Positions 19,906 to 46,290 of a stretch of 64,000 nt of DNA are shown here, piece by piece. The position numbers were made by a program, and so were the translations under genes. The notes beneath the pieces were generated by a model. It was not told where the DNA came from. It made no database searches and was given only the letters and a program-made list of their open reading frames with translations. Within the stretch, counting starts at the first letter, position 1. Every line of letters starts with the position of its first letter. This stretch comes from Acidobacteriota bacterium (lineage in GTDB: Bacteria; Acidobacteriota; Thermoanaerobaculia; Multivoradales; J023). The stretch is from positions 1 to 64,000 of the forward strand of contig JAJCXO010000154.1 in assembly GCA_029263395.1 (NCBI GenBank). Direction: 5' to 3'.

Positions 19906-21426
19906 TCAGAGCTTCGTGAGTTGTTGGCGTCGAGCTCGCAGAGTGGTCACGAGATCCTCATGGCCCGATGAGCGTGCAAAGCTCTCCAACTCGCGCGCAC
20001 GCAAGACCGCACGAGCCCAGGAGTCGGCACTGCGGCCGGCGATCAATTGATCTAGTAGACGGGTAATCCGTTGCGAGCCGAGGTCGATTTCGCCGCGTTG
20101 GAGGGTCAGTTTGGCTTCGAGAAACTGCAACGATCGGCGACATTCGGCGCGCTGCATCAACCCGACAGGGTGCTGTAGGAGAGTTGGAGTCAGCGCCACC
20201 AGCCGGTCCGTTGCCAGCTCGAAAGCGTCTTCGGCTTCCTGCACCCGACCCAAGGCGATCAGGGCTTCGCCAGCCAACGCAGCACCGAAGAACGCGCCGG
20301 CCGCGTCGGTGTCCTGCTCGCAGCGGCGAGCTACTTGCAGCGCTTCGCTGCTGCTGCCGGCTGACAGCAAGTACTCGACCCAGGGTGTGCAGTAGAACCC
20401 GCCCCGCCAGCCCTTGCCTGCCAAGCTGAAAGTTTCGGCGAAAAGCTCGCCAGCGGCTTGCTGGTCATCGAGATGGAGTCTCACGGCGGCCAAGAGTCGC
20501 AGGTTGTGACCGAAGTGCCAGTCTTGCTCTAACGCCAAGCCGAGCTCATCGGCTTGTTGCCGATGCAGCCGGTCGACTCGTTCGAGGATCTCGACCGTTT
20601 CGGACCACGCACAGCGACGAGGTAGCAGGTGACCGACCATGTGCCAAGCGTGAGGAATCTGTGGCAGGCCTTCCGCAAATATCCGGGCGTGCCGTTCGGC
20701 CAGTTGATACTGCCCGAGGTTCTCGTAGGCATGGGCTAGGAAGTGGTGGGCGCCCCAATGTTCAGGATCGTGCCGCAGCGCGGACGAGAACCAGGCCACG
20801 GCGTCGACGTCTCCGCCCTGGCCACGTAGCCACGAACCGGCTTCGGCGGCGGTACCGCGCAGCACCAACAGATGCGGGTCGTCGATGTCGATCCGCAGTC
20901 GCTGGTCGATGGCGGCGCGGTAGCGAGCTGTTCTGTCGAGGCGCTCGGCGGCCGGTGAAGTCAAGGCTTCGAATTGCAACACCCCGAACCTGACCCAAGC
21001 CTTTTCTCGCGCTGGGCCGTCGACGGCCAGCGCCACAGCACGATCGAGATTGTGGCGTGCCGAGTCGAAGTCCCCCAGGCTCCATCGTGCCTTGGCGAGA
21101 CCTAGATAGGCCATGGCCAAGCGATCGTCGAGTTGCAGCGCCTGCTTGAACGAACGCTCGGCCAACAGCCAGCGGTAGCCAGCCAGCAGCGTAATGCCTT
21201 GGTCGTAATAGGCTTGAACAGCTGGCTCTGCCGTCGAGAGAGATTGGTGTAGACGAGGTTCGAACATCAGGTCGATTGACGCTTGGGCGGCCGCCGGGGG
21301 CGTCCCGACGGCGCCAATTATCGGCTCGCTGGCGGCAATTGAGAATCCGTAGACGAGTCCGATCAGCCAGAACCAGCGGCGCCAGCTGATCGGTATGTCA
21401 TGGGTCTCGAGCTCAAACTTGTTCAT
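19906..21426 (-). CDS. Membrane-anchored or exported TPR protein
   Basis: The 506-residue product has one N-terminal hydrophobic segment (FWLIGLVYGFSIAA) and many tetratricopeptide-like helical pairs. Recognisable repeats include AERSFKQALQLDDRLAMAYLG and AVAWFSSALRHDPEHWGAHH (each quoted in part). No catalytic domain is seen. ATG 21426 is preceded by GGAG; the longer frame would run into the start of the neighbouring gene's coding strand. The gene lies 50 bp downstream of an unknown secreted protein in the same direction and probably shares its transcript. A scaffolding role in the periplasm is the simplest reading. Confidence 0.75.
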   Translation of the reverse strand: MNKFELETHDIPISWRRWFWLIGLVYGFSIAASEPIIGAVGTPPAAAQASIDLMFEPRLHQSLSTAEPAVQAYYDQGITLLAGYRWLLAERSFKQALQLDDRLAMAYLGLAKARWSLGDFDSARHNLDRAVALAVDGPAREKAWVRFGVLQFEALTSPAAERLDRTARYRAAIDQRLRIDIDDPHLLVLRGTAAEAGSWLRGQGGDVDAVAWFSSALRHDPEHWGAHHFLAHAYENLGQYQLAERHARIFAEGLPQIPHAWHMVGHLLPRRCAWSETVEILERVDRLHRQQADELGLALEQDWHFGHNLRLLAAVRLHLDDQQAAGELFAETFSLAGKGWRGGFYCTPWVEYLLSAGSSSEALQVARRCEQDTDAAGAFFGAALAGEALIALGRVQEAEDAFELATDRLVALTPTLLQHPVGLMQRAECRRSLQFLEAKLTLQRGEIDLGSQRITRLLDQLIAGRSADSWARAVLRARELESFARSSGHEDLVTTLRARRQQLTKL

Positions 21427-21476
21427 GAGACTCCGGAAACCTCTCCAGGTACGGGATTGCCCACAAGTTGGCGGAC

Positions 21477-22898
21477 TCAGGTACACATAGGAGGTGGAAT
21501 GATGGTGCAAGTATGCGACGTCGAGTCGCTCATGTTCGCTTTCCATAATGCATTTGTGGCCGCGCCGAACGTGACGCTCTGGCCTGCAATGGATACGTTT
21601 ACCCCCACCGAACCGCAAACAAAGACGATGCATTCTTTGACGGCACATTGCATGCCAGCTGTACAGGTCGCAATCTTGCTCGCAGTTGAACTCTTCTGGT
21701 CGAGGACCTTGTATTCCTTGTGGCCAGTCACCAGAAGGCCCTCATAAGTCCCACCGTCGTTACAGCCATTGTTGTAAATCAGAGGTTGGCAGCTGACGTC
21801 ACAGTTTTCGTGGCAAGTAAATCTAGAAATCAAGTCGAAAGCGGCTAGATGATTGCCCGTAGCATGACCGGTTGAGTCTCTTAGGTATTGGAAAGGTGAC
21901 AGTTTGTCAACGACCTCCGTGCGACACCTGATGATGGGATCAATATCTCCTGGGTCCCTGAGTTTGAGCTCGATGTCGACCCCAGCTTTCCCCTTGATGG
22001 ATTTGTTCCAACCACCGCCGAGGCCGGCCGAAGGTTGCCGTTGCATATCAGCCCGAAACGCCTCGAACGATTTGTGTGGCGTTGAGAGTGTACCCTCGGA
22101 CACGAACTGGCCGACGCTCTCGAAGACTCGGTCTTGCAAGTTGGCAAGCACTTGCCCGTCAGGCCCCAGCTCCCATAGAGCAACGGCGCGATAGCTTACC
22201 GTGTCCGCCTCATACTGGAGCGTCGCCTGGTAGGTGGTCAAGGCGCGAATCGCATCGGCATTGCCGCCTTCGAAGCTTTCCGAGTCGACGGGTGCTTTCA
22301 AGGATTTTTCCATGCTGTTGGACTCGGCGCGCGGGTGGCTCGCATAGAGTCCCAGCGCCTGTTCTACGGTCAGTTCAGTGAGCCCTTTTTCCGCCAAAGT
22401 GCTCTTGATCTCAGATTTTGTTTCCCAAGCAACTTCTCGGTGGGAGCGTACGGTTTTCTGGCCGTCTTGCTCGACTACAAAGTCAGTACGTTGCCCCCGG
22501 AGCTTGCGGCCATCGGGCCGCGAGATCATGTCGCTCCATAGCGTCTCGTCGAACGCTTCCGGATAAAGCGTTCTAAAGTCAGATAGCTCGACATGCATGG
22601 TGTAACCTGAATCGCGTATCTTCTCGGCTGCAACTTCGTACATCTCTTCGATCACCGCGCGTTCGTCGATCTGCCGCGCTAGCTCGTCGTCTTGCTCGCC
22701 ATGAAAAAGAATCATTTCTGGTGCCTTGGGTAGAAAGGATTTTTCCGACTCTTGAGCCGCAATTCCTCCCGGCCCCAACATCATCAGTAGGATCAGCAGG
22801 CGAGTTATGGCCTGGGTTGTGCTTGGCGTGTGGCTGCCAACGTCGGAGGGTTGCATGTTGGCAAACCCTTTGCCGGTGGTGTTCTGGCGTGATCTCAT
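21477..22898 (-). CDS. Secreted protein of unknown function with Cys-rich C-terminus
   Basis: I do not recognise this 473-residue protein. It has a signal peptide (about residues 30-48, RLLILLMMLGPGGIAA), a charged, mostly helical middle with no known motif, and a C-terminal ~130 residues containing about a dozen cysteines (CHENCDVSC, CTAGMQCAVKECIVFVC). These suggest a disulfide-bonded extracellular domain. GAGGA precedes ATG 22898. It is followed at 50 bp by the TPR protein, so the two may form an extracytoplasmic pair. Confidence 0.65.
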   Translation of the reverse strand: MRSRQNTTGKGFANMQPSDVGSHTPSTTQAITRLLILLMMLGPGGIAAQESEKSFLPKAPEMILFHGEQDDELARQIDERAVIEEMYEVAAEKIRDSGYTMHVELSDFRTLYPEAFDETLWSDMISRPDGRKLRGQRTDFVVEQDGQKTVRSHREVAWETKSEIKSTLAEKGLTELTVEQALGLYASHPRAESNSMEKSLKAPVDSESFEGGNADAIRALTTYQATLQYEADTVSYRAVALWELGPDGQVLANLQDRVFESVGQFVSEGTLSTPHKSFEAFRADMQRQPSAGLGGGWNKSIKGKAGVDIELKLRDPGDIDPIIRCRTEVVDKLSPFQYLRDSTGHATGNHLAAFDLISRFTCHENCDVSCQPLIYNNGCNDGGTYEGLLVTGHKEYKVLDQKSSTASKIATCTAGMQCAVKECIVFVCGSVGVNVSIAGQSVTFGAATNALWKANMSDSTSHTCTIIPPPMCT

Positions 22899-23242: not shown

Positions 23243-26200
23243 CTACTGCCAGTCGCCGTAAAGTTGGAATCCAGCCCAATGTAATGGTAGTGAAGCGTCG
23301 ACGGAGCGTTCGATCCCTCCCATCCCGACCACGGAAACCTGGCTCGTCAACAGATCGAGTTGCGCAGCTCGCAAGGCGTCTACCTTGGTCTCGCCGCTGC
23401 GCAAGTGGTGATAAAAGCGTACGACGAGCGCCTGGGTGTGGAGGTCGGAGACTTGCCACAGGGCTGCCGCCACACTGCGGGCTCCGGCAATCTGGAAGGC
23501 TCGGGTCAGACCGATCAAACCCTCGCCGGCAAGCTCTTTTCCTAGTCCGGTGCGACACGCTGAAAGCATGACCAGATCGGCATCGAGTCGGACGCTCTCG
23601 AAAATCTCCCAAGCTTGCAGTAAGCCATTGTCCCCGCCAAAGCCAACGCTAGCCGAGACGTCTTTGGGTTGGCTGAGCACCAGAGCCGAATCGAGAGGGG
23701 AATGGGCGTCGAGTAAACCATGCACAGCAAAATGAACCAGCTGGGTGTTGCGAGGCAGCGACTTGACTTCCTCTTCGATGGCACTCCGGCCGATGAAGGC
23801 TTTCGAACGCGGGAAAAGGTTGGCGATTCTCTCGACCTCGAAGCGGCTGGCCGGTAATGGGTTCATCTCGAGACCACGTCGGATCGCCGAGCGCCAAGCC
23901 ACCGGGGGCTTGCCTGAACCATAGTCTGGGTCGCCAAAGGCTGCCAAGGTCCATTGCGAGATTGGCTTCCGATTGGTCGGCCGAGCGGCAGTCAGTTGGT
24001 CATGGACGGTAGCCGACAAGGCCAGGTAGACGGCCTTCGATTCGATCAAGTACCGAACCGGCTCACCTTCAGGAGATTGGACAAGTGCCGCCCACGGCAA
24101 GTGGTGCAGCGGCCCGTCGGCAAGAACCAACAGGCGGTCGGCTTCATCGATTGTTGTCGCCAGTGGTACGAGGAGTTGCCGGTACAAGGTCCGTAACAGA
24201 CTCTCGGCCCGTCGCTGGCGGCGTTGTCCGGCTGCTGAGCTGCCGGTGCCACTGATCAAGCGGTTCAGCAGGTCGATCTGATTCCTCAGCACAGGCTCTG
24301 GTGGGATCGGCGCGGTCCGTAGCCTGCCGTCTTTGGACAACGCAAACACTTGGCCACCGGAGGCAGCACTTTGAAACGAAAGCAGAAGCGTGCCGTGGTC
24401 GAGGGTCCGCGCCGCCTGTTCCAAATTTAGAGCTTGCTTCGGGCGCGCTGCGAGGTATTTCGGCGACAAGCGTTGCAATTCGAGGCTGAGACGTTCGTAG
24501 CGACGTCGCAAGCGGTCGAGCTCGTGGATCAGTGCCGGGTCTGGGCTCGGTGCAATGCGGATCTGCTCTTGGACTCGTTCATACTGAACCGCGAGATCTC
24601 GACGTTGATCCACAAGCTCCGGCGACAGCTCATCGCTGAGTAGGTCGCGACCGGCAAGCAGCTCGAGAAAACCGCGAGCACGGGAACGCTCGACGATGTC
24701 GAAGGCTTCGACCGGACGCTCCTGAGCAAGCAGCAACGCAGCATACTCATCATAGGCCGTTTTGGCGTTGGCTCGATAATGAGACCTCTGCAGCTCGGTT
24801 CCTCCGAGCCGGCCGATCTGCGACTCGAGAGCAGCCAGAGATTGTTGGTAAAACTGTGCTGCGACCTCAGGCGCTTTGTCTCGCCACGCACGGCCTAAAC
24901 CCCTCAAGGTTGCTGCCTCTAAGGCGCTGTGGGGAGCAAGGCGCTGACGGATTTTCAGCGCCTTGTCGAGAGACTCGATTGCAGCCTCAATCCTGCCTGG
25001 CGATGCCAGGTCGAGCTCCCCTAACAGGTGATGGCTTTCTGAGGTTCGCAGACCCTCCGGAGCGATAGCAGTCTGGCGGTCCCTCGCTTTGAGCGCCAGC
25101 TCCCGGGCTTTTCCCAGCTCGCCTTGCCGCCGAGCGATTTCGGCAAGTTGTAACAGGCTGTCGGCCAGTTCCGGATTGGCCGGGGCGAGTGCCAGGCGAA
25201 TCTCGTGAGATTCGGTGGTCAGTGTGAGTGCATCGTCCAACGTGCCTCTGGCCAAGGCCAAGGCTGCGAGGCGATGGAGTCCGAAGGCGGTGTCTAGACT
25301 CTGTGGCGCCAATCTACGATAGATCTCTATCATGCGTCGATAGTGCTCTTCAGCCCAGGCCAAGTCTCCCCGGTCCTGGGCGATGGCGCCCATGGTGTCC
25401 AGTGCCAGAGCCATCTCGTGGCTCACCGGGGCAGCGTCGCTGAGTATCGTTATCGACTGTTCCGCTAGCTTCTCGCCTTCGACCAATTGTCCACGTTGTC
25501 GGTGGCACTCGGCGAGATTATTGAGCGCCACGGCAACGAACCTGCTGTTCGGGTCCAGCTGTTCGGCAATTGCCAGGGACCGACGAAAATGACCCTCCGC
25601 CATGCTCATCAAGCCGCGGTCGTGAGCGGCAATCCCGAGATTGTTGAAGGTTTCGCTTTCGAACCTCGATCCTGGAGCTAGCTGTCGGTAGAGGGGTGCC
25701 AGTTGCTTCCATGCAGCTTCCGCGGCATCCAACTCTCCCTGCTGGCGCGCAACATGGCCAAGGCCGCTCAAGGCGGTTGCCTTCAGCATACTCCGCGGAG
25801 CCGATTGATCTAGCTGCTCGGAAGCCTCTTTGAATCGAACTTGTGCCGACTCCAGCCTGCCACTACCGAGATCCAGGATACCGAGCCAGTTCTGCCAGTA
25901 GGCTTGCAGAAGCGACCCGAGGTTGTTGGAGCGAATCGTCTCGAGACCCTGGATGATCCTGGCCGAGCTTGTCTCGAAGTCCCCAGTGTGTTTCAACGCC
26001 GCGCTCAAACGCTCGAGTACGTAAAGTTGATCGAGAGGATCGGGCAGCACATCCAGCAACTGGGCCAAGTCATCCTCGGTGGCCCCCGCATTCCCAAAGC
26101 GAATCTGGGTATCGAGAATTTCGGCGGCCCACCAGGCTTGCAGGCCGGGCTCCGAGGAGGAGAGCTTGTGGTGTTGGCGCCAGGCGTGCAGTACGGCTAG

Positions 26201-26611
26201 CGGCGTCTCGGATCTCTTCGAACGGCCATCGCGGTAGGCGGTGAGGGCTTCAGGTGTCAGCTGGGGTCGCAGCTCGACTCGCCACGGCCCATCGCCGAGT
26301 TCCAGCCAGAACGTCTGGTCGTCGCGCTGTACTTCCAGCTCGACGGGCTGCCGGGGGATCTCGGCTCGTTTGAGCCACCAGAAGTCAGTTGGTCGAGCGA
26401 GCTGGCCGGTAGTTGTCGTCTGCGTCTCGCTCCGCCGTCGCCATCTCGACAGGACATCTCCCGGGAGCAAACCTGGCGCTGCTTCTGGAGACACCGTTTC
26501 GACGACAATTGCGGTGCCTTCGGCGCTCGACCCTAACGTCACCATCGATCCACCCCCGAAGACGACCGCGGCGATCAAGATCCGACTCCAGCGGTAGCCG
26601 AAACCGCTCAT
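23243..26611 (-). CDS. Exported PDZ-TPR-CHAT caspase-like protease
   Basis: This 1122-residue protein has an N-terminal signal or anchor (~8-28), then a PDZ-like segment (VSPEAAPGLLPGDVLSRW, ~35-115) and about fifteen TPR-type helical repeats (~150-640). The C-terminal CHAT domain (~820-1122) has the catalytic His964 in HFAVHG and Cys1019 in LSACRTGLG, followed by GLTRAFQIAGARSV and ALWQVSD, all diagnostic for CHAT. CHAT proteases are relatives of separase and caspases and normally cleave one specific partner. Its start overlaps the upstream gene (ATGA at 26608-26611), and that gene overlaps a sigma-like factor, so the three are a coupled unit. A signal sequence implies the protease faces the periplasm. 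Confidence 0.9.
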   Translation of the reverse strand: MSGFGYRWSRILIAAVVFGGGSMVTLGSSAEGTAIVVETVSPEAAPGLLPGDVLSRWRRRSETQTTTTGQLARPTDFWWLKRAEIPRQPVELEVQRDDQTFWLELGDGPWRVELRPQLTPEALTAYRDGRSKRSETPLAVLHAWRQHHKLSSSEPGLQAWWAAEILDTQIRFGNAGATEDDLAQLLDVLPDPLDQLYVLERLSAALKHTGDFETSSARIIQGLETIRSNNLGSLLQAYWQNWLGILDLGSGRLESAQVRFKEASEQLDQSAPRSMLKATALSGLGHVARQQGELDAAEAAWKQLAPLYRQLAPGSRFESETFNNLGIAAHDRGLMSMAEGHFRRSLAIAEQLDPNSRFVAVALNNLAECHRQRGQLVEGEKLAEQSITILSDAAPVSHEMALALDTMGAIAQDRGDLAWAEEHYRRMIEIYRRLAPQSLDTAFGLHRLAALALARGTLDDALTLTTESHEIRLALAPANPELADSLLQLAEIARRQGELGKARELALKARDRQTAIAPEGLRTSESHHLLGELDLASPGRIEAAIESLDKALKIRQRLAPHSALEAATLRGLGRAWRDKAPEVAAQFYQQSLAALESQIGRLGGTELQRSHYRANAKTAYDEYAALLLAQERPVEAFDIVERSRARGFLELLAGRDLLSDELSPELVDQRRDLAVQYERVQEQIRIAPSPDPALIHELDRLRRRYERLSLELQRLSPKYLAARPKQALNLEQAARTLDHGTLLLSFQSAASGGQVFALSKDGRLRTAPIPPEPVLRNQIDLLNRLISGTGSSAAGQRRQRRAESLLRTLYRQLLVPLATTIDEADRLLVLADGPLHHLPWAALVQSPEGEPVRYLIESKAVYLALSATVHDQLTAARPTNRKPISQWTLAAFGDPDYGSGKPPVAWRSAIRRGLEMNPLPASRFEVERIANLFPRSKAFIGRSAIEEEVKSLPRNTQLVHFAVHGLLDAHSPLDSALVLSQPKDVSASVGFGGDNGLLQAWEIFESVRLDADLVMLSACRTGLGKELAGEGLIGLTRAFQIAGARSVAAALWQVSDLHTQALVVRFYHHLRSGETKVDALRAAQLDLLTSQVSVVGMGGIERSVDASLPLHWAGFQLYGDWQ

Positions 26612-27609
26612 TCCGTCGTCACCTCCAGCGGGTATTCAGCGAGACTTGTTGCCGTCCCGTCGGTCAGGCCAAACAAGCGAGCGCGCAGTTCGATGCCGTT
26701 TAGTTTGCCCACTGGCAGCAGAACGGCAAGCTCGGTGCCCTTGCCGAGCGTCATCTCGCCCGAGGTCCAGAGTTCGTTGCCTTCAGGGTCGAGAACGTCG
26801 AGCCGGTAGCGGTCGGCTAGCTCCGGGGGCTCGATCATCAGCAATACGACGTGCGATTCTCCTGAGGCCAGGCTCACTGGCTTGGCCGAGCGCATCGACT
26901 CGTCGTCTCCCAGCCAGACCATCGGCAGGTTCCCCGACGGTTTTTGTGTGGCTTCGAGCTCTTTGATCTGGCGAGCCTGGACCCAGGTTAGGGCCACGAG
27001 GCCCGTGACGACGGTCGCCATAGCTGCCGCGACCAGGAATCGAGGCCAGGGGCGTGGGTTGACGGGCGGACGGCCGTTGGGCTTTGGTGTTGGCGGCTTT
27101 TGTGTCTCGTTGATCTCAAGGTTTCGCAACACTTGGGTGGCTGGTTCCAGGGACTCGGCGACCCACCGTTCGTAACTCGGCTCGTCGAGCAACTGGGTGG
27201 CTCCGCGATCCATAGACAGCCCTGCAGAGTTTGCCCGCACCTCTTCGACGACAGCTACTGGAACCCTGCCGCTGTATCGATCGGCACTGAGCTTGGCCGT
27301 CGGTACCGTAACTTGGAATCGAGGGCGTAGCCTGAGTGGGCCGAGGCCAGCATCAGTGGGCACCGCGACATCTTCAGTACAAGCGAGGGGAAAGGTGTCT
27401 GCTGCCACCAGCAGGCACCGGTCCTCGTCCTGGTGCTCCAGGATCATCCATTCGATTCCGTAGTCGGCGCTGTCGGGCAGCACCCACAGATCGCCAAGGG
27501 CGGGTGGTAAGGGCGGCGAACGCTCCGAACTCCGACCTGAGCGAGCCGACTGGGAGCGAGCCGACTCGACACGCCGGTAGACACGGTGGCGAAAAGAGTC
27601 TTCAGTCAT
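26608..27609 (-). CDS. Single-pass membrane protein between sigma-like factor and CHAT protease
   Basis: I recognise no family for this 333-residue protein. It has an Arg/Ser-rich, mixed N-terminal part (~1-175), one transmembrane helix (~190-212, PRFLVAAAMATVVTGLVALT) and a C-terminal ~110-residue beta-rich domain expected in the periplasm. The topology is that of an anti-sigma factor: cytoplasmic N-terminus near the sigma-like protein, periplasmic C-terminus near the CHAT protease. The genes overlap on both sides (8 bp upstream, 4 bp downstream). An anti-sigma or protease-substrate role is inference from position only. Confidence 0.6.
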   Translation of the reverse strand: MTEDSFRHRVYRRVESARSQSARSGRSSERSPPLPPALGDLWVLPDSADYGIEWMILEHQDEDRCLLVAADTFPLACTEDVAVPTDAGLGPLRLRPRFQVTVPTAKLSADRYSGRVPVAVVEEVRANSAGLSMDRGATQLLDEPSYERWVAESLEPATQVLRNLEINETQKPPTPKPNGRPPVNPRPWPRFLVAAAMATVVTGLVALTWVQARQIKELEATQKPSGNLPMVWLGDDESMRSAKPVSLASGESHVVLLMIEPPELADRYRLDVLDPEGNELWTSGEMTLGKGTELAVLLPVGKLNGIELRARLFGLTDGTATSLAEYPLEVTTE

Positions 27610-28777
27610 GGGACTCCCCTAACTCGGACGGCGTCGCGTCTGGATCAGTGAGACCAGGCGAGTCGACCGTATCGATTCGACGGCAGCGTTCGAGATAACG
27701 CCCCAGGGTGGCCAACAGGCTTGGAAGCCGACCCCGCGGTATGCGGAGCTGCTCGGCTAGCTGCCGGGTCGATCGCGGAGCGCTCACCTTGTCATGGTCC
27801 ATCGATTGATGGATTTCGACAGTATCTCCCAAAGCCTCGACCCGCAGGAAGCGCCACAAAGTCAGCAGGTGGCGCCGCGACTCCGGGCGCTGGGCCGAAC
27901 GTTCGAGACGCCGCTCGACGCAGGTCACCAATCGGTCGAAGTGTTCGCGTTCCTCGAAGTCGTTGGGCGGAACCACGTGTCGTGTCATAGTGTGGAATGA
28001 ATCATCAGGTTCGGCGGTTGCGATGCCTTCGGCGTCGCCCTGATAAAGGGCTGCCCACCGTGCCCGAACGTCATAACGCAGCGGATCCAGCAATTCACCG
28101 AAGCGAAACGAGCGGATCCCGTCCTCGCGAAGGCCCAGGATTTTGGCTTGCAGGTCGCTGATCAAAGCCTTGCGGGCGGCCCCGCGAACCGTCAGCAAAT
28201 CAGGCATGAGATGGTCATTCCAGGAGCGTACTCGAGCCCCGAGGTCGTTGCTGAGGGGAGTCTCGGACTCAATTTCGAAAAAGGCCAACAGAGTGCCACT
28301 GCGCAGTTTGGATCCAGCGTCGATGATCCTTAGCTGCTCGGCATTCACCAGGTTTTCGACGGCTGACCGAGCCATCTCATACGTCCGGAGCCCGATCGGA
28401 TCGTGCACCCGCTGACGATCGTGGATGAAGTGTCGAACGTTCAAGTGAATCAGACCCTCGATGGATTCCTTGACCCGCAACTGAGCACTCAAGCTTCGCA
28501 GACGGTGGCAAAAGATGTAAGTGAAGCTGTCGGCCACCAATTCTTCGAGGGCGTCGGTGCGTCTGTCAGCGAGTGTGTTGCTGCTGCCGTTTACCGAGAA
28601 CCAGGTCTCATAGCCGTAAACACCGAGGTAAGATGGTGGCTGATCCGCCATGCCCCGCCGACGTAGCTCGCGTCTCAGCAGTCGGCGCAAGGCCTGCCAC
28701 ACCGCGTCGAAGCGATCGGCAGGGATTTCCTCGCGGTTGGCGAGTGAGTAGATGAAGTCACTGAAGAAGCGGCTCAT
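27602..28777 (-). CDS. Sigma-factor-like DNA-binding protein
   Basis: The middle of this protein, beginning LEELVADSFTYIFCHRLR and continuing through HLNVRHFIHDRQRVHDP, resembles sigma-70 region 2. The C-terminal segment STRQLAEQLRIPRGRLPSLL looks like a region-4 helix-turn-helix. It is longer than ordinary ECF factors (391 residues from ATG 28777), with an extra ~100-residue middle. The frame is open from 28894. ATG 28777 or 28819 is preferred because a promoter-like element lies at 28898-28918 and the N-terminal 40 residues of the long form look non-conserved. It overlaps the membrane protein gene by 8 bp. Family assignment is by eye and moderate. Confidence 0.55.
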   Translation of the reverse strand: MSRFFSDFIYSLANREEIPADRFDAVWQALRRLLRRELRRRGMADQPPSYLGVYGYETWFSVNGSSNTLADRRTDALEELVADSFTYIFCHRLRSLSAQLRVKESIEGLIHLNVRHFIHDRQRVHDPIGLRTYEMARSAVENLVNAEQLRIIDAGSKLRSGTLLAFFEIESETPLSNDLGARVRSWNDHLMPDLLTVRGAARKALISDLQAKILGLREDGIRSFRFGELLDPLRYDVRARWAALYQGDAEGIATAEPDDSFHTMTRHVVPPNDFEEREHFDRLVTCVERRLERSAQRPESRRHLLTLWRFLRVEALGDTVEIHQSMDHDKVSAPRSTRQLAEQLRIPRGRLPSLLATLGRYLERCRRIDTVDSPGLTDPDATPSELGESHD

Positions 28778-28897
28778 CGATGGGAAACCCTTGGGATTCC
28801 AGCTTCGGAGCTCCGGCATGGAGCGTTCGGATGTGGCCTTGTTCGAAGGAGAGTCGATCGTGCCTGCCAGGGAACTCACGAACCCATACGCCACGAA

Positions 28898-28918
28898 TTC
28901 TAGACTAGATCCCGTCTA
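28898..28918 (-). promoter_or_regulatory. Promoter-like element upstream of the sigma-like gene
   Basis: On the minus strand the element reads AGACGGGATCTAG followed by TCTAGAAT. The 13-nt core AGACGGGATCTAG recurs exactly upstream of the phosphodiesterase gene (57603-57615), and GATCTAG with CTAGACT recurs upstream of arsI (28980-28989). TAGAAT could be a -10 box. Confidence 0.45.
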
Positions 28919-28963
28919 AGCACGTGGGTTGTCCGGTCGCCCTCCCTCCCTGAACCAGATAAC

Positions 28964-28989
28964 GGCAAAAACTAGATGCGATCTAGACT
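28964..28989 (+). promoter_or_regulatory. Promoter/operator-like element upstream of arsI
   Basis: GGCAAAA (28964-28970), 9 bp, then GATCTAGACT. Inside it, CTAGAT-GCG-ATCTAG (28972-28986) is a perfect inverted repeat. The same GGCAAAA ... GATCTAG arrangement occurs upstream of the phosphodiesterase gene with an 8-bp gap. TAGACT at 28984-28989 may be the -10. Confidence 0.45.
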
Positions 28990-29092
28990 GCCGCGCGGAT
29001 GAGCGAAGATGTTTGCATCCTTTGGCTCGCAACTCCGACTCCTTGGATAGCAGGACAAATCGATACCACGTTGACCAAGGAGATCAAAGACC

Positions 29093-29533
29093 ATGCAAAG
29101 ACTACACATCAACATCAAAGTCAAAGAGCTCGCTGAATCCGTTCGTTTCTATTCGACGTTGTTCGCCGCCGAGCCGACGGTCACCAAGTCGGACTATGCC
29201 AAGTGGATGCTCGACGATCCGCGAGTCAACTTCTCGATTGTCGAGGCTGAGGGTGGCGCGCTCGGCATCCAACATCTCGGCATCGAAGCGCAGACCGAAG
29301 ACGAGTTGCAAGACTTGCGGCGTCGTATCGGTTCGCTCGACGGCGAGGTATTCGACGAAGGCGATACCATCTGTTGTTACCACGCCTCGGACAAAACCTG
29401 GGTCACGGACGCGCAGGGGGTATCCTGGGAAACCTTCTACACGTCCGGCGAGGCCACCACGTTGACGAATCCGGCCGCTGAGGCGGACGCGGGCAACGAG
29501 ACGGCATGTTGCGAAACGACCTGTTGCAGCTGA
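29093..29533 (+). CDS. arsI: ArsI-like C-As lyase / CadI-family glyoxalase-fold protein
   Basis: This 146-residue vicinal-oxygen-chelate protein shows the ArsI pattern: metal ligands His5 (MQRLHI), His61 (GIQHLG) and Glu113 (SWETFY), and the vicinal pair Cys94-Cys95 (DTICCYH) that binds trivalent organoarsenical. ArsI cleaves the carbon-arsenic bond of methylarsenite and related compounds. Unlike the compact enzyme, it ends in a second cysteine cluster, CCETTCCS. A run resembling AAGGAG precedes the ATG. A sigZ-type gene follows after 44 bp, a partnership pointing to metalloid-responsive expression. CadI-type cadmium-induced proteins are the main alternative. Confidence 0.8.
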   Translation: MQRLHINIKVKELAESVRFYSTLFAAEPTVTKSDYAKWMLDDPRVNFSIVEAEGGALGIQHLGIEAQTEDELQDLRRRIGSLDGEVFDEGDTICCYHASDKTWVTDAQGVSWETFYTSGEATTLTNPAAEADAGNETACCETTCCS

Positions 29534-29577
29534 GCGACACGGTGCATCCAAGCAGGTATCCTCGGCAGGGAGACGTG

Positions 29578-30171
29578 ATGAGCCAACCGACACACGAAAC
29601 GATGTTAGAAACCTCGTGGGGACACTTCGTGGATGGGCTCCGGGCCTTCATCCGCCGTCGGGTACCTGCGCAGGATGCGGAAGATGTCGCGCAAGAGGCT
29701 CTACTACGGATCCACAAGAGCGCCGCTTCGTTGCGTGACCCGCAGCGCGTCCAGAGCTGGGTCTATTCGGTCGCCCGGCATGCGGTTGCCGACTACTACC
29801 GCACCCATCGACGGGTCGAAATTTCAGATTCGATCGAACTCGACGCGATGCCCGATCCGAGCGCTGGGATTGCCGAAAAGCTCGGCACGTTCGAGGGGGA
29901 TCACAGCACGCATGAGGAAGTCCTCTCTTGGTTGCGTCCGACCGCCGAACAATTGCCGGCTGGCTATCGCGAGGCGTTGCTGATGGCAGACTTCGAGGGC
30001 CTGACCCAGCGCGAGGTGGCAGCTGCCCTCAACTTGTCGCTGCCCGGGGCCAAGTCCCGCGTCCAGCGTGCTCGTCGCATGCTGGCAGCCGAGCTCGAAC
30101 GTTGTTGCTCGGTAGAGCTTGGACCCGAAGGCCAGGTCGAAGATTTTCGGCGGAACAACTGCGATTGTTGA
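29578..30171 (+). CDS. sigZ: SigZ-type ECF RNA polymerase sigma factor with Cys-rich tail
   Basis: This 197-residue ECF sigma factor has region 2 (DAEDVAQEALLRIHK, then RVQSWVYSVARHAVADYYR) and region 4 (LPAGYREALLMADFEGLTQREVA, quoted in parts). Its C-terminus carries RCCSVELG and ends NNCDC, a cysteine arrangement typical of the SigZ group and suited to binding metal or arsenite. ATG 29578 is preceded by GGGAG; the longer frame from 29506 overlaps arsI. No anti-sigma gene follows, so activity may be controlled by the Cys tail itself (inference). It is transcribed with arsI and converges with the diguanylate cyclase. Confidence 0.82.
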   Translation: MSQPTHETMLETSWGHFVDGLRAFIRRRVPAQDAEDVAQEALLRIHKSAASLRDPQRVQSWVYSVARHAVADYYRTHRRVEISDSIELDAMPDPSAGIAEKLGTFEGDHSTHEEVLSWLRPTAEQLPAGYREALLMADFEGLTQREVAAALNLSLPGAKSRVQRARRMLAAELERCCSVELGPEGQVEDFRRNNCDC

Positions 30172-45916: not shown

Positions 45917-46290
45917 AATCAGCCGATGATCGGCAAAATGTCGACCGACATTGGCCCAATCAGCCGATGATCGGCAGGATGTCGACCGACATCGGCCCAA
46001 TCAGCCGATGATCGGCAAAATGTCGACCGACATTTGCCCAATCAGCCGATGATCGCCAGGATGTCGACCGACCTCAGCCCAATTTTCGCCTGATCGAGCT
46101 TCTCGAGCACGCAACGAGCCACGATCATCGGGTGATCGCACGGCTTGTCGCGAACACGAGGTCCAATCATCGGCTGATCGGGCTGCGATGTTTTGTTCAG
46201 ATCCGCGATCAGCCGATGATCGGACGTCTCGAGCATCCTCGACCCGTCGATCAGCCGCTGATCGACGGTCTTGCGACGAGGAACCGAGGG
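45917..46290. repeat. Nine-unit phased palindrome array, 41-42 bp period
   Basis: Units begin at 45917, 45958, 45999, 46040 and 46081 (41-bp period), then at 46123, 46165, 46207 and 46249 (42-bp period). Each unit starts with a 15-bp palindrome RATCA-N5-TGATC; unit 5 is degenerate in the left arm. In units 1-4 the rest of the unit is also conserved and contains TGTCGACCGACA. In units 6-9 the flanks have diverged, but the palindrome arms remain intact. 41-42 bp is four helical turns, so all palindromes face the same side of the DNA. The period is not a multiple of three, and no frame runs through. There are no spacers, so this is not CRISPR. Confidence 0.88.

Follow-up and report, generated by a model that had tools for sequence, protein, structure and literature searches.

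The 64,000-nucleotide window analyzed here (positions 1 to 64,000 of contig JAJCXO010000154.1, from an Acidobacteriota bacterium) contains a trio of overlapping minus-strand genes that is a real, recurrent cassette and is probably regulatory. The trio encodes a divergent sigma-70-like protein, here called SIG (27602–28894), a predicted single-pass anti-sigma-like protein of 333 amino acids (aa), here called MP (26608–27609), and a TPR-CHAT protease of 1122 aa that is predicted to be exported (23243–26611). An earlier note on this DNA had described such an arrangement, and reading of the open reading frames (ORFs) bears out the overlaps it gave, which are 8 bp (27602–27609) and 4 bp (26608–26611). 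The SIG ORF encodes 430 aa from GTG 28894 or 391 aa from ATG 28777; the latter start, near which homologues begin aligning, places the gene at 27602–28777. In our best reading, to which we give about an even chance of being right, the trio is a non-CRISPR counterpart of the CASP module of type III-E CRISPR systems, in which MP holds SIG at the membrane, the exported CHAT protein acts as the operon's own site-1 protease, and M50 and cytosolic proteases finish the release.

The assignment of the third gene to the TPR-CHAT proteases, made in the earlier note together with Cys1019, is upheld by a Pfam match to PF12770 at residues 805–1120 (E = 9.8e-63), by TPR repeats and by the motifs of the predicted catalytic pair, His964 (AVHG) and Cys1019 (LSAC). 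By hydropathy, a hydrophobic segment starts at residue 11, after an Arg-containing start, consistent with export. Comparable signs are common among the 56 CHAT ORFs that lie near the domain that MP shares with other proteins (see below): 45 carry a hydrophobic stretch at the N-terminus or a lipobox (15 lipobox), and regular expressions recover both catalytic motifs in 42.

MP appears to be a chimera. It consists of a SIG-associated N-terminal domain (residues ~36–163), a linker, one strong transmembrane (TM) segment by hydropathy (~191–208) and a predicted periplasmic C-terminal domain, and the TM/periplasmic part also ends zinc-binding anti-sigma (ZAS) proteins encoded next to real extracytoplasmic function (ECF) sigma factors. 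Its sequence thus suggests a shared TM/periplasmic part joined to an N-terminal part specific to SIG. An HxxxCxxC zinc motif precedes the TM segment in 32 of 79 MP-type proteins sharing this domain, and zf-HC2 scores above its cut-off in three of the four that were scanned (L205, L018 and L228); the motif is absent from the window MP, which is therefore not classed as a ZAS protein. Curated models recognize MP poorly, with a sub-threshold match over the linker and TM segment to the NCBIfam model "anti-sigma factor" (E = 0.0024, 17.9 bits, cut-off 100), which 4 of 23 MP relatives also match, and one weak Pfam match (0.12). With regard to sidedness, which is predicted, the positive-inside rule favors a cytoplasmic N-terminus in 46 of 76 MP-type proteins.

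Cassettes of this kind recur widely, as a search for conserved trios, proposed in the earlier note, made clear. The genome from which the window comes (10.68 Mb) has 42 CHAT matches, a very large expansion, and includes a second trio of the window type (L013, contig C78). In a survey of 36 neighborhoods and the window, 40 CHAT ORFs were examined for these 42 matches; an ECF gene lies within 3 kb of 23 of them, SIG of 3 and either of 25, and a protein with the MP-type TM/periplasmic domain is found near 12. Several of these loci run ECF, single-TM protein, TPR-CHAT. We then applied a profile of the TM/periplasmic domain to four genomes that had not contributed to it (G002, G005, G011 and G018; 40 matches and 39 ORFs, with none for L238 at a contig end). 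A CHAT gene lies within 2 kb in 33 of the 39 (within 150 bp in 19), an ECF gene within 100 bp in 31, and SIG is fused or adjacent in 4, so that 35 of the 39 have either regulator; under uniform placement, the chance of such a placement is roughly 3% per gene. Outside the taxonomic order the association is found at 11 of 21 ORFs for CHAT within 2 kb and at 13 of 21 for ECF within 100 bp, in a sample of 20 hand-picked loci, one match per genome and mostly the best-scoring, that passed over G221 (which also has SIG), G132, G161 and lower matches. Across 396 genomes drawn from the phylum, the domain is present in 66; at most nine candidates were scored per genome, so that match numbers per genome are lower bounds.

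SIG itself is far more restricted. It was found in 8 of the 396 genomes (at most four candidates scored in each, again giving lower bounds per genome), six of them from the same taxonomic order, the window's own genome included, together with a full-length match in G221 and one weak C-terminal match; among the 59 nearest relatives, 16 have it. SIG and MP are paired in 33 of 36 SIG loci, being adjacent in 23 and fused into one polypeptide in 10 (from seven genomes), and SIG stands without MP in 3, one of which is at a contig end. Because SIG is sometimes fused to its membrane partner, proteolysis is a natural release step.

Some loci depart from this architecture. SIG genes at L107:6160-7239 and L108:7121-8197 have no detected MP and adjoin Ser/Thr kinase genes. 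At L100:12676-13875 (minus strand) the SIG C-terminus deviates from the family, and a remnant of the MP domain lies in an overlapping frame, pointing to a frameshift or decay. L043:1248-5904 (contig C162) is a soluble variant, possibly decayed or cytoplasmic, in which SIG occurs as two short ORFs beside a further CHAT gene and the MP N-domain lies within a TM-less protein of 675 aa whose C-terminal part matches Peptidase_C25 below the cut-off (E = 7.7e-4); it was excluded from the 36-locus counts and from the promoter sets. A second CHAT architecture is seen at L109:8241-10241 and L122:8852-10852, where CHAT proteins of 666 aa with a mid-protein TM segment and no N-terminal hydrophobic segment adjoin fused SIG–MP genes (Pfam CHAT 5.6e-21 in L109). 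The sole locus returned by a search of genome contigs for related loci, L095, was rejected, as it matched none of the SIG, MP and CHAT profiles.

A mechanism that would account for this organization is as follows. SIG would be held inactive at the inner membrane, bound by the cytoplasmic N-terminal domain of MP, with the C-terminal domain of MP in the periplasm. An envelope signal would activate the exported TPR-CHAT protein through its N-terminal and TPR parts, and CHAT, as site-1 protease, would cut the juxtamembrane periplasmic stretch of MP, the candidate site being R240-S241. A site-2 protease of the M50/RseP type (the genome has five M50 matches, some partial), followed by cytosolic proteolysis, would then free SIG to transcribe its own operon and a regulon.

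A number of our results weigh against this model, and we consider them here together with the alternatives that they favor. Two concern where the proteins lie in the cell: the earlier note had the protease in the periplasm and the N-terminus of MP in the cytoplasm, but 11 of the 56 CHAT ORFs considered above have no export segment, and the positive-inside rule is neutral for 18 and points the opposite way for 12 of the 76 MP-type proteins. A third concerns the composition of the loci. Within 2.5 kb of the 36 SIG loci there is a CHAT gene in 18, a Ser/Thr kinase gene in 12 and both in 3, with neither in 9 (two of them at contig ends), and in several of the loci that do have CHAT it lies upstream or on the opposite strand. 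These numbers fit an alternative, in our view somewhat unlikely, in which SIG and MP form a complete sigma/anti-sigma sensor and the gene for CHAT, or for the kinase, belongs to the regulon that they control. CHAT would then be a caspase-like effector, made and exported once the switch has fired, and not the triggering protease. This alternative is favored by the half of the SIG loci that have no CHAT within 2.5 kb and by the ORFs with the periplasmic domain that have none within 2 kb, which number 6 of 39 in the test genomes and 10 of 21 outside the order. However, the genes of the window overlap, CHAT accompanies a single periplasmic anti-sigma domain even where the cytoplasmic modules joined to it differ greatly, and the CRISPR precedents place the protease upstream of the anti-sigma factor (PMC10028731, PMC11417357).

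The kinases can be read in two ways. Their counts rest on a profile built from nine kinases recognized by eye, four of which were later confirmed in Pfam, and all four that were scanned combine Pkinase with TPR repeats, with a TM segment between them by hydropathy; one such kinase neighborhood, in which SIG–MP stands next to a kinase gene, is in the window's own genome (L102, contig C58). Because the kinases, too, carry TPRs across the membrane from the kinase domain, CHAT proteins and kinases may stand in for one another as TPR-bearing input modules of SIG loci. Kinases activate some ECF sigma factors, so replacement of CHAT by a kinase fits the idea of alternative activators, although it also fits a third gene that is an output.

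Another question is whether SIG, described as sigma-like in the earlier note, is a sigma factor at all. Reading of the ORF, the SIG alignment and an hhalign comparison with ECF sigma factors delimit a region-2-like part (residues ~19–114) and a helix-turn-helix (HTH)-like C-terminus (~335–369). When SIG residues 1–150 were compared with a profile of 47 ECF sequences that included no SIG protein, residues 19–114 aligned to region 2 with a score of 34.7 (P = 5e-5), whereas column shuffles reached at most 16.2 (0 of 60 attaining the real score) and the reversed profile 12.9. We also ranked SIG against 15 alignments of real families from the loci examined, one being SIG itself. Of the 14 others, an ECF family is the best match to the N-terminal end (32.3, the next ECF alignment scoring 18.0 and the next non-ECF alignment 16.2), and three ECF alignments rank first to third for the C-terminal end. 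The sigma-like nature of the N-terminus is thus supported, and the sequences are best described as a divergent sigma-70/ECF-like family that Pfam does not see and that comes mostly from the window's own taxonomic order.

The remaining evidence on SIG is less favorable. The profile check against sigma-70 regions that the earlier note had suggested gives a match above controls for region 2, whereas for region 4 the score of 22.1 barely exceeds that of the reversed control (21.5). Pfam, NCBIfam and PADLOC assign no family to the window SIG at E ≤ 1, and a Pfam scan of 35 relatives found Sigma70_r4 in only one (E = 0.011), so that curated models identify sigma-70 regions 2 and 4 neither in the window protein nor in the relatives as a set. 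An initial ECF alignment of 13 rows matched SIG in the C-terminal part alone (probability 8%) and not in region 2, and a PDB profile search with the SIG alignment gave no credible match. Direct derivation of SIG from PF07638-type ECFs was rejected: that profile gave a partial match of 40 columns (22.1, P = 0.0095; shuffles at most 18.0, reversed 15.9) and nothing useful for SIG residues 10–145. A single-sequence AlphaFold2 model of SIG alone was unusable (pLDDT 38.5) and was dropped.

The lack of a Pfam sigma match in the window SIG and the region-4 score, together with weak matches of single SIG members to other HTH models (HTH_36, 0.0052; HTH_Crp_2, 0.0054) and the fusion of SIG to a TM protein in 10 of 36 loci, suit an alternative in which SIG is an HTH regulator but no sigma factor; it could, for instance, be a transcription factor that MP tethers to the membrane and proteolysis releases. 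We consider this unlikely, as the region-2 match exceeds the shuffled, reversed and real-family controls, SIG occupies the position of the ECF gene in the related cassettes, and SIG operons carry a bipartite upstream element with AAC in its upstream half.

This element, TAACG(G)-N14-16-T(T)GGC, emerged from a gapped-word scan of the 350 bp upstream of 36 SIG genes, in which the best word occurred in 11 of 36 and in at most 7 after each of 10 base-composition shuffles. The pattern TAACGG-N13-17-TGG is present upstream of 13 of 36 SIG genes and 0 of 50 domain-adjacent ECF genes. Among 98 other ECF genes there is a single case, which lies in a SIG locus (L109), and among 347 other ORFs there are 2. 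Fisher's P is 3e-14, or 7e-10 with likely orthologues collapsed (two presumed orthologous groups, giving 9 of 32), and these values are optimistic because the SIG set from which the pattern was derived is also the one in which it was counted. A shorter core pattern gives 13 of 36, 0 of 50, 3 of 98 and 7 of 347 for the same classes; when the SIG upstream regions are read on the reverse strand, 3 of the 36 contain it. With AAC in the upstream half, a spacing of ~14–15 bp and a second box, the element has the form of an ECF promoter. Conversely, a looser pattern over 480 bp occurs in 14 of the 36 regions, and in 5 on the reverse strand, whereas 200 shuffles gave 5.3 on average and 13 at most; the intergenic region 5′ of the window operon (28895–29092, minus strand) lacks the TAACGG-N14-TTGGC element seen in other SIG operons. 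A search for another common motif in the 23 SIG loci that lack this one gave nothing above shuffles.

The proposed cut site is similarly ambiguous. Among CHAT-adjacent proteins, no column of the TM/periplasmic domain is better conserved than an Arg about 30 residues past the TM segment, which in the window MP is Arg240 (SM-R240-S; 26890–26892, minus strand). It is present in 54 of 66 such proteins, and in 43 of these 54 the next residue is Gly or Ser. Clan CD proteases often prefer Arg at P1, which is the reason for regarding R240 as a candidate cut site, yet it may instead be structural. Dependence of the Arg on CHAT was not found, since 17 of 26 proteins without a nearby CHAT have it, comprising 4 of the 6 that have a kinase nearby and 13 of the 20 that have neither. 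In addition, Csx30 is reported to be cut in a flexible loop near residues 427–429 with no essential residue found (PMC10028731), so an Arg preference cannot be assumed. Conservation of the Arg without CHAT, the kinases near SIG–MP in 12 of 36 loci and the five M50 matches in the genome would all suit a general protease of the periplasm, of the DegS, Prc or RseP type, cutting MP, or phosphorylation activating SIG, with the target of CHAT elsewhere, but we doubt this in view of the strong association of the shared anti-sigma domain with CHAT (33 of 39).

The logic of the trio is already known in kind, being common to CASP, CalpL and regulated intramembrane proteolysis systems. In the type III-E CASP/Craspase locus, too, an ECF-like sigma factor and its inhibitor are encoded together with a TPR-CHAT protease, and proteolytic release has been proposed (PMC10028731). 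It was to this system that the earlier note had likened the trio. The genetic logic in the note, with a regulator, a single-pass membrane partner and an exported CHAT protein, does recur, but the protein features compared do not place the trio among type III-E CASP systems. Unlike CASP as described in that source, the trio has a CHAT protein predicted to be exported, an MP predicted to span the membrane and without a detected relation to Csx30, and a SIG that Pfam does not recognize as an ECF sigma factor. Against the Csx29 model NF041237, the window protease scores E = 0.037 and 12.9 bits, far below the cut-off of 300, and no Csx30 model is among the NCBIfam matches of MP. A PDB profile search with MP returned eight matches at E ≤ 10, none of them Csx30 and none credible, from a structure library that presumably includes Csx30 chains. 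In line with the earlier note, a scan of the window for direct repeats of ≥20 nt within 120 bp found no CRISPR-like array (Cas7-11 was not profile-searched). One partial Cas1 match lies elsewhere in the genome (contig C178).

Other systems resemble the trio in part. In CalpL/CalpT/CalpS of type III CRISPR, a protease cuts an anti-sigma factor that holds an ECF sigma factor, as proposed here, but CalpL is a cA4-activated Lon-type protease and not a CHAT protein (PMC11417357). RseA/DegS/RseP and RsiW provide the precedent of a membrane anti-sigma factor subject to sequential proteolysis (via PMC10028731). A further likeness to RseA/DegS/RseP is that two CHAT relatives, among six N-termini scanned, have weak PDZ matches before the TPRs (L012, 5.9e-5; L123, 0.0056), both under the Pfam cut-off; no PDZ domain was detected in the window protein by Pfam scan. 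Unlike in that system, the site-1 protease of the trio would be a caspase-like CHAT protein encoded in the operon. Sigma and anti-sigma parts occur in one polypeptide, as in fused SIG–MP, in ECF48, ECF52, ECF53, ECF36 and IutY, and proteolysis releases such fused proteins or is expected to do so (PMC8999054); as presented there, they differ from SIG–MP, in which Pfam does not recognize SIG and the fused domain is the MP N-domain rather than ZAS. Operons that pair a caspase-family gene with a sigma factor were reported in 2012, with metacaspases and sigma-70, from Myxococcus, Anaeromyxobacter, Haliangium, Sorangium, Ralstonia and Fibrobacter (PMC3501461). Those are metacaspases and not TPR-CHAT proteins, and section 13 of that paper describes no anti-sigma or export logic. 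In the open-licence PMC literature, covered mostly at title level, no exported CHAT protein with an anti-sigma factor was named, which does not establish absence from print.

More broadly, we tentatively suggest, as a possibility well short of an even chance, that exported CHAT proteins are dedicated, Arg-specific site-1 proteases of TM anti-sigma factors in widespread non-CRISPR envelope cassettes, that one branch of these uses a Pfam-invisible sigma-70 subfamily often fused to its tether, and that such cassettes may have been the source of the type III-E CASP module. If our reading of the trio is correct, many TPR-CHAT genes of these genomes would gain a function in transmembrane transcriptional signaling, a caspase-family site-1 protease would be added to regulated intramembrane proteolysis, and CASP would gain a non-CRISPR context. 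It would also add a divergent family of sigma-like proteins, together with two specific predictions, of TAACGG-N14-TTGGC as promoter and of a cleavage site.

Finally, several features of the window lie outside the trio. Divergent from it on the plus strand, 29093–30171 encodes a glyoxalase-superfamily protein (PF00903, 1.2e-5), followed by a true ECF sigma factor with Sigma70_r2, Sigma70_r4 and a Cys-containing tail. Downstream of the trio, 19906–22898 (minus strand) encodes a TPR protein of 580 aa and a Cys-containing protein of 473 aa; the latter has a hydrophobic segment at its N-terminus and matches no Pfam family at E < 0.07. Farther away, at 45917–46121, 41-nt units are repeated in tandem, each with the palindrome-like CCGATGATCGG.

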